Assembly (NCBI RefSeq): GCF_003293745.1
Contig: NZ_PTLZ01000001.1
Coordinates: forward strand, 434,001-498,000
DNA length: 64,000 nt
Source of the DNA: Herminiimonas fonticola
GTDB taxonomy: Bacteria > Pseudomonadota > Gammaproteobacteria > Burkholderiales > Burkholderiaceae_D
Direction: 5' to 3'
Shown here: positions 26,044 through 27,965 of the stretch, piece after piece
Numbering within the stretch: position 1 is the stretch's first letter
Layout of the letters: every line of letters begins with the position of its first letter
Notes under the pieces: generated by a model
Database searches by the model: none
Seen by the model: only the letters and a program-made list of their open reading frames with translations
What the model was told of the DNA's origin: nothing
Position numbers and translations under genes: made by a program

Positions 26044-27084
<1,041 letters not shown>

Positions 27085-27105: not shown

Positions 27106-27247
27106 ATGAAACTTTTTGATCGCGCGCTCGTCCTAGTAGCAGATGCTTTGCATCTCCCGCTTCTCCTCCCTGAGCGGGGCCAGGTCGTACTATGCGATAT
27201 GGCGTTATTGCCCTGGAGATACTCCCCTTTCTCCAGGGTTTTTTTTT
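27106..27247 (+). ncRNA. Candidate small RNA with C-rich loops and its own terminator
   Basis: Plus-strand element in the engB-hemB gap, opposite to both genes. It has three hairpins. AGATGC/GCATCT lies at 27141-27155. CCCGCT (27156-27161) pairs with AGCGGG (27173-27178), exposing the loop TCTCCTCCCTG. CCCTGGAGA (27211-27219) pairs with TCTCCAGGG (27230-27238), with loop TACTCCCCTT, followed by nine Ts. The last is a perfect terminator that no plus-strand protein gene uses. Both larger loops are complementary to Shine-Dalgarno sequences. The 5' end is a guess and no convincing promoter was found. Not recognised as any known RNA family. Confidence 0.5.
27211..27247 (+). terminator. Strong plus-strand terminator without an upstream plus-strand gene
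   Basis: Nine-pair stem CCCTGGAGA / TCTCCAGGG with a nine-base T-run (27239-27247). The T-run overlaps the engB stop codon on the other strand. On the minus strand the hairpin lacks a T-run, so it is directional. Confidence 0.85.
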
Positions 27248-27965
27248 ATTCTTTTGGCTCTACATCGTTCGGGATTTCACCCGAAGTTTCGTCCGTGTCG
27301 TCATCATTCAAGCCGAGCAATTCCAGAATCTTTGCGTCGGCTTCTTCTATGCCGCTGCGTTTAAGCGCCGAAAACAATTGCGCGGTAAATGGAAACGGTT
27401 GGCCGTCTGCATCTACATAGCTTGCCAGAATCGTACGCGCAGTGCGCAGCGCATTCGTCGATTCATTTCTGTTTAATTTATCCGATTTCGTCAGTATGCA
27501 ATGGATAGGTTTGCCAGTCGGCGCAAACCATTCCAGCATTTGAATATCAAGATCGGTAAAAGGCCGGCGCGAGTCAATAATCAATATCAGAGCCGCGAGT
27601 TGTTCGCGACGTTGTACGTAATCGCCCAATAGCTCTTGCCAGTGCAGCTTGGCCGAACCGGAGACTTGAGCATAGCCGTAACCCGGCAAATCGACCAGCA
27701 AGCCGCGGATTTCATCTACGTTGGTTGCATCTTTTCGATGTTGGCCAACTTGCGCGCCGCCGATCGAAAAATAATTGATATGCTGCGTACGCCCCGGTGT
27801 TTTGGATGCAAAAGCCAGTTTTTTCTGGTTGGACAGGATGTTGATTGCAGTCGATTTGCCGGCGTTGGAGCGGCCGGCAAAGGCGATTTCAGGGACTTGC
27901 GTATTTGGCAAATCACGGAGATGATTCACCGTGGTGAAGAAGCGGGCTTGCCAAAGTAGGGACAT
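27246..27965 (-). CDS. engB: Ribosome biogenesis GTP-binding protein EngB/YsxC
   Basis: GTPase (239 aa) needed for 50S subunit assembly and cell division. G1 motif GRSNAGKS is at residues 31-38; the switch segment [13 protein letters not shown]3 VDLPGYGYA and G4 TKSDKLNR are all present. The acidic tail after about residue 215 ([10 protein letters not shown]) is an extra. Leader gene of the engB-hemB pair and divergent from the cytochrome c4 gene. Confidence 0.95.

Follow-up and report, generated by a model that had tools for sequence, protein, structure and literature searches.

The gap between engB and hemB in the window (the whole 64-kb stretch of Herminiimonas fonticola DNA analysed here) holds a small RNA gene on the plus strand with minus-strand neighbours on both sides, which raises the question of what this RNA is, what drives its transcription and how it might act. 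An earlier note on this DNA had read the gap as encoding an undescribed plus-strand small RNA with two C-rich, anti-Shine–Dalgarno loops and an intrinsic terminator, and all the elements that it named are present in the window where it had placed them. As set out below, we consider it probable that this is an anti-hemB RNA that is expressed from a RpoE/sigma-E type promoter, folds into four hairpins and acts in trans through its C-rich loops, in the manner of ErsA and sX13. The features concerned are these:

26044..27057, minus strand: hemB, the divergent neighbour (from the list of open reading frames, where it starts at TTG 27072; ATG 27057 was chosen here)
27108..27114, plus strand: sigma-E type −35 element GAAACTT, 6/7 to GGAACTT
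27131..27135, plus strand: sigma-E type −10 element TCCTA, separated from the −35 element by a 16-nt spacer
27141..27247, plus strand: predicted small RNA transcript of about 107 nt (from promoter position, terminator and RF02837 match)
27141..27155, plus strand: 5′ hairpin P1 (AGATG / CATCT), absent from the Rfam model (from covariation)
27156..27178, plus strand: hairpin P2, whose loop UCUCCUCCCUG is complementary to GGGAGGAG ribosome sites (stem and loop near-invariant in 57 loci)
27179..27203, plus strand: middle hairpin P3, predicted in the fold of the window and present in the Rfam model; it lies outside the consensus structure of alignment A1
27210..27247, plus strand: terminator hairpin P4 with loop UACUCCCCUU and a nine-U tail (from fold and covariation)
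27246..27965, minus strand: engB, the convergent neighbour (from the list of open reading frames)

Since hemB and engB both lie on the minus strand, the small RNA runs antisense to each of them, with a 3′ end that barely reaches the engB stop codon.

Results and discussion

The RNA is a member of the anti-hemB family

Rfam family RF02837, ‘anti-hemB’, matches positions 27153–27246 of the plus strand over the full model (1–81) with 61.4 bits, as compared with a cut-off of 49.5, and no other Rfam match in the 64-kb window reaches the gathering threshold. The small RNA belongs to this catalogued family, of which Weinberg et al. reportedly gave a first description in 2007, and the word ‘undescribed’ has to be withdrawn. 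The Burkholderia cenocepacia homologue, ncS04, is expressed and Hfq-bound; the available text of two reports (PMC5688073, PMC4603805) presents it as a 105-nt RNA with a confirmed 3′ end, detected by Northern blot, which co-purifies with Hfq and is flanked by two genes in the same relative orientation. The available parts of these reports and of a third (PMC3521395) name no function for anti-hemB or ncS04. The RNA of the window has in common with RF02837 and ncS04 its sequence and structure (above the cut-off), the position opposite hemB and antisense to it, a length of about 105 nt, C-rich loops and an intrinsic terminator; it differs in that the Rfam model is without the 5′ hairpin and the B. 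cenocepacia locus (L167) without the sigma-E type motif of the window. The likeness to alphaproteobacterial regulatory RNAs that had been proposed for the loops did not hold up, ar14 (RF02344) reaching just 24.1 bits against a cut-off of 58.8, and NsiR1 and LhrC, the other candidates tried as the family, lay far under their cut-offs. The overall reading of the earlier note is, on this evidence, partly supported.

One RF02837 match above the cut-off is present in the source genome. Such matches were found in 45 of 60 genomes of relatives (source genome counted), in 245 of 399 genomes sampled from the order and in 21 of the 369 genomes of the class sample, 18 of these 21 lying outside the order of the window by row count. 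Matches below the cut-off also occurred in 3 of 14 control genomes, and genomes with such matches only were therefore left out as carriers. At least 120 stretches of named genomes contain an exact 23-base core, with Burkholderia, Pandoraea, Thiobacillus and Methylovorus represented; the 120 loci with this core, 80 of which are titled, are referred to below as the named set.

Conserved structure places the RNA on the plus strand

Structure was assessed in an alignment, A1, of 57 loci made up of the locus of the window and the best-scoring RF02837 hits among relatives and the order, and so not a random sample. RNAalifold returned three helices for A1, and across the alignment 186 cells were changed on both sides of a pair, as compared with a mean of 55 in shuffles; the excess of further pair types was less striking (32 versus 28.7, with 17 of 500 shuffles attaining 32). 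When partners were displaced by one to three columns, pairing fell from 97.5% to 34.5%–54.6%, a control that favours the structure because this had been derived from A1 itself. Every one of the six alignment pairs of the 5′ hairpin P1 shows two-sided changes in some sequences, with 94.8% of its cells paired; in P4, such changes affect 8 of 9 pairs. The P2 stem, CCCGCT/AGCGGG (27156–27161/27173–27178), which encloses TCTCCTCCCTG (27162–27172), is nearly invariant, so that covariation is silent on it. Conservation of stems and loops had been set as a test by the earlier note, and the outcome is favourable: the C-rich hairpin hardly varies in the 57 loci, while the terminator stem covaries.

Folding of 27148–27249 gave z = −5.0, with none of 200 shuffles as good. 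As had been described, a terminator with a nine-T tail lies on the strand opposite to engB and hemB: its stem occupies 27210–27219/27230–27239, with the loop TACTCCCCTT at 27220–27229, and is followed by nine T (27239–27247). A simple terminator scan returned no site, the loop limit of the scan being 8 and the terminator loop here 10. G–U pairs, which distinguish the strands, were present in 41 cells when the plus strand was considered, as compared with 5 A–C cells, the equivalent of G–U on the minus strand; the nearly constant U–G pair of P2 (columns 45–55) is omitted from this count. The excess on the plus strand indicates that the folded molecule is the plus-strand RNA.

A sigma-E type promoter pattern precedes the RNA

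The promoter pattern is one of three things that this analysis adds to a catalogued RNA, the others being the 5′ hairpin and the occurrence of the RNA beside engB in other orders; neither the pattern nor the hairpin figured in the earlier note. Upstream of the RNA, the loci have in common a GGAACTT block and, after a spacer of 16 or 17 bases, a TCNNA block. Because these 57 loci are also where the pattern was first recognised, its counts in them depend in part on how it was chosen. When 6 or more of the 7 GGAACTT positions had to match, it was present in 51 of 57 loci; of 2067 further 75-base windows taken from these loci, 2 had it, and single-base shuffling left a mean of 0.12 of 57. Another version of it occurs in 43 of 57 loci and in 3 of 2067 control windows, the figure after dinucleotide shuffling being 0.31. 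At least one locus in 23 of 24 families carries it. The spacer is mostly unconserved, with columns mostly <0.6 bits and two exceptions of 0.8 and 1.0, when assessed in one sequence from each of 13 families, all with a 16-base spacer and all picked for having the pattern. In the window, the transcript start is placed 6–8 nt past the −10 element, near 27141–27143, which brings the length close to that of the 105-nt ncS04.

Promoters of the GGAACTT/TCNNA form are read by sigma-E of E. coli and AlgU of Pseudomonas. An RpoE gene is present in the source genome (324.8 bits), and among 60 relatives' genomes, source genome counted, 55 have an RpoE match above the cut-off; we infer from the promoter sequence that RpoE may be the sigma factor that reads it. 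Numbers are too few to decide co-occurrence: 43 of the 55 genomes with RpoE above cut-off have the RNA, and of the five without, three are without the RNA above its cut-off and two, both drafts, have it. The pattern offers a testable regulator for an RNA that scores above the RF02837 cut-off in 245 of the 399 genomes sampled from the order.

There are nine RpoE-like matches in the source genome, so that several ECF factors may exist, and this lends some weight to a different account of transcription, in which an RNA of the same family, likewise acting in trans, is transcribed by a housekeeping or other sigma factor and GGAACTT/TCNNA either serves another ECF factor or survives as a relic. The same account gains from rpoE itself, since its own promoter carried the motif in none of 30 loci at the threshold used (one of these, L230, being misplaced by a short flank), and autoregulation of rpoE through this motif was rejected on that count. 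It gains further from the many loci beyond the first 57 in which the motif is missing. In the named set it was found in 73 of 120 loci and, among the 80 titled ones, in 4/4 Pandoraea, 15/28 Burkholderia sensu lato (grouped by title) and 28/48 others. Seven Burkholderia loci (L112, L122, L165, L166, L167, L169 and L175), including that of B. cenocepacia NCTC13227 (L167), are without the motif and have TTGGTATATGATA upstream in its place; two loci titled Burkholderia sp. (L150 and L155) carry it. Against this account, the pattern fits the E. coli sigma-E/AlgU consensus and nearly every family has it in one locus or more (the 23 of 24 above), and the locus L089, which matches the model of the sigma22-dependent ErsA (see below), has TGAACTT...TCATA. 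We therefore regard control by a sigma factor of another kind as unlikely, and retain RpoE as the candidate regulator.

The distribution of the motif has a bearing on the published expression data. In the available text of PMC5688073, the level of ncS04 did not change significantly under seven conditions by qPCR, and short exposures, including 20 min in SDS, induced largely none of the small RNAs. As the B. cenocepacia strain examined is without the motif, these tests do not bear on motif-bearing species; to judge from the sequence upstream, the missing motif could explain the unchanged level, and the species used for the expression study may belong to a lineage that is without the stress promoter. 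The words RpoE and ErsA do not occur in PMC5688073, and the titles, openings of abstracts and passages covered, mostly of open-access papers, gave no link of anti-hemB to either.

In its strict form, GGAACTT-N15-17-TCNNA, the motif has 4 sites in the source genome, as compared with 37 for the pattern read backwards, as if it were avoided; 2 of the 4 lie inside open reading frames, and they are too few to define a regulon. One strict site (L256:1501–1529) is at the start of a frame that from its sequence resembles a D-Ala-D-Ala carboxypeptidase (dacA-like), and another (L257:1501–1528) precedes a frame that by the same judgement encodes a small membrane protein. In many Paraburkholderia loci, a sigma-E type motif overlaps TGGTATATCATA.

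In other orders the RNA often lies beside engB, in part just after polA

Among the 57 loci of A1, hemB is divergent in 54, engB is convergent in 52 and both arrangements coincide in 52; the two are combined in 105 of the 120 loci of the named set. For a view beyond the order, engB was searched in 114 genomes of the class, 105 of which gave a match, and the loci of the 30 best were taken; 29 of these are not that of the window, and one of the 29 (L070) comes from the same order. A model built from A1, termed R1, whose E-values are rough, found the RNA in 17 of the 29 (E 8e-16 to 2e-4) and gave no match in the other 12. Fifteen of the 17 are convergent with engB and two (L081 and L085) are on the engB strand; the polA C-terminus is just upstream in 9 of the 17. 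The Rfam anti-hemB model matched 13 of the 29 at E ≤0.0032, above its cut-off at L078 only. Of the 27 best-scoring RF02837 loci outside the order, 20 are convergent with engB or follow polA, 4 of the remaining 7 being short contig-end loci. At the same threshold as before, the promoter motif was found outside the order in 9 of the 17 engB-side loci matched by R1, and in 11 of the 27 RF02837 loci; among loci matching the sX13 model it was found in 3 of 15.

These arrangements bear on the proposal that the RNA is a cis-antisense regulator, which would control hemB by full pairing with a minus-strand engB–hemB readthrough mRNA or with the hemB leader. In its favour are the Rfam name, which suggests control of hemB, the antisense position of the RNA in a short gap, its divergence from hemB in 54 of 57 loci, and a consensus scan that gave no sigma-70 promoter on either strand. 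In other orders, however, the upstream gene is often polA on the same strand as the RNA, which is still kept; the loop sequence is conserved across orders, for which full antisense pairing has no need; and the G–U pairs favour a folded plus-strand RNA. We consider control of hemB in cis to be decidedly improbable. The competing possibility in the earlier note, a minus-strand hemB leader with a six-codon peptide and a GGGAGGAG ribosome site, is scarcely credible: the frame (MQSICY) does exist and recurs, slightly altered, in the 11 genus loci, the only ones among the 57 to have it, and GGGAGGAG, being the complement of the loop, hardly varies, but 30 of the 57 loci have no start codon within the distance scanned, the peptides of the other 16 from outside the genus are unrelated, the G–U pairs that accompany covariation are those of the plus strand, and promoter pattern and terminator are on the plus strand as well.

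Two loci of one genus, L090 (1087–1857) and L298 (1497–2448), each have four tandem copies of an RNA with C-rich loops between polA and engB; those of L090 match anti-hemB, ErsA or sX13 models, all under cut-off.

Intermediates suggest a probable link of anti-hemB with ErsA and sX13

The polA–engB position of the RNA in other orders is also that of known small RNAs. ErsA of Pseudomonas aeruginosa (RF01719) sits in the polA–engB gap (PMC8575079, available text), is sigma22-dependent and represses algC and oprD (PMC8395346, available text). The RNA of the window shares with it a C-rich terminator loop and a promoter of sigma-E/AlgU type, with GAAACTT-N16-TCCTA present in the window. The polA–engB locus is common to ErsA and to the RNA as found in other orders; in the window, the RNA is convergent with engB and has hemB rather than polA as its other neighbour. 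The ErsA model (cut-off 50 bits) has no match in the window genome; it matches 13 of the 369 genomes of the class sample, engB being convergent in 11 of the 13 loci, and the sole match above its cut-off (L089, after polA) is missed by R1.

sX13 of Xanthomonas (RF02232) adjoins polA, and its C-rich loops repress mRNAs with G-rich motifs independently of Hfq (PMC3771888, available text). Common to both RNAs are the polA locus, in the case of anti-hemB as found in other orders, and stem-loops with C-rich loops that in sX13 act, and in anti-hemB would act, on G-rich sites; the independence from Hfq is a difference. The sX13 model (cut-off 50 bits) likewise has no match in the window genome. It matches 15 of 369 class genomes, 3 of them above cut-off and all three after polA; R1 finds 10 of the 15 loci at E <0.01, L290 in addition at 0.02 and none of the remaining four, with the three above-cut-off loci found weakly (E 0.0003–0.02).

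Several loci fall between the families. L078 is above the cut-off for anti-hemB (58.4 bits) and below it for ErsA (30 bits), L073 and L090 match both the anti-hemB and the ErsA models, all under the cut-offs, and one of the four tandem copies in L090 reaches 48.3 bits for sX13, just under the cut-off of 50. Because the window genome has no ErsA or sX13 match and R1 misses both L089 and Spot 42, we have not filed the RNA as ErsA or sX13. The link to the two runs through intermediates that are mostly under cut-off, and a single origin appears likely from their sequences. Spot 42 of E. coli (RF00021) lies between polA and engB (yihA) in the same orientation; no C-rich anti-ribosome-site loops were seen in its sequence, and its kinship would be one of position only. 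A search of the window gap against Rfam did not list it at E ≤1, spf was not found by R1, and Spot 42 is CRP-controlled according to the title of a reference in PMC3771888, as available.

Taken together, we lean, by a modest degree, towards anti-hemB, ErsA and sX13 forming one ancient beta-/gammaproteobacterial family at the polA/engB locus that would ancestrally have been controlled by an envelope-stress sigma factor, with Spot 42 perhaps a re-wired enterobacterial successor and with an exchange of the promoter in B. cenocepacia. If so, the promoter swap in the lineage of B. cenocepacia would account for an ncS04 that shows no stress response. The link to ErsA and sX13 also bears on a question raised in the sX13 paper (PMC3771888, available text), namely whether other bacteria, too, have small RNAs acting in a like manner at their polA locus. 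In our view, the features that deserve to be followed are the promoter pattern of sigma-E type, the additional hairpin and the broader family at polA/engB.

Proposed action of the C-rich loops

With ErsA and sX13 as precedents, repression in trans by covering G-rich sites is likely. Under envelope stress, RpoE would transcribe the plus-strand RNA from the promoter at 27108–27135, starting near 27141; the RNA would fold into its four hairpins and end at the U-tail near 27247; and the two C-rich loops, which are complementary to GGGAGGAG-type ribosome sites, would pair with G-rich ribosome sites near the start codons of many mRNAs and so block translation, probably with the assistance of Hfq. 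The computations establish to which family the RNA belongs, its structure and strand, the promoter pattern that the loci share and its place next to engB, with polA as a neighbour in other orders. We infer that Hfq would bind the RNA in this species, that mRNAs with such sites would be its targets and that the direction of regulation would be negative.

Candidate targets were sought in two ways. When the four PF13609 porin genes of the source genome were compared with 50 open reading frames of the window, there was no clear signal: 4 of the 50 frames pair with loop 1 at least as well as porin L287, 3 of the 50 pair with loop 3 at least as well as porin L286, and the remaining porin pairings are unremarkable. 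Exact AGGGAGGAG followed by ATG at 2–11 bases occurs at 25 sites in 13 genomes of the genus, as compared with 2 for the reversed control; 13 of the 25 are the antisense strand of the RNA itself, so that few others (12) are left.

CU-rich anti-ribosome-site loops are also a feature of the betaproteobacterial toxic double-hairpin RNAs of RF02278 (ncS27; S17 is related), which differ in occupying separate loci. Two of these RNAs (70 and 72 bits) stand in tandem elsewhere in the source genome, at L002:1497–1769 (C1, near 133451), and a second, weak RF02837 match in that genome (27.7 bits) coincides with one of the pair. A Guanidine-II riboswitch lies at 1183–1229 of the same locus, on the strand opposite to the RF02278 RNAs.
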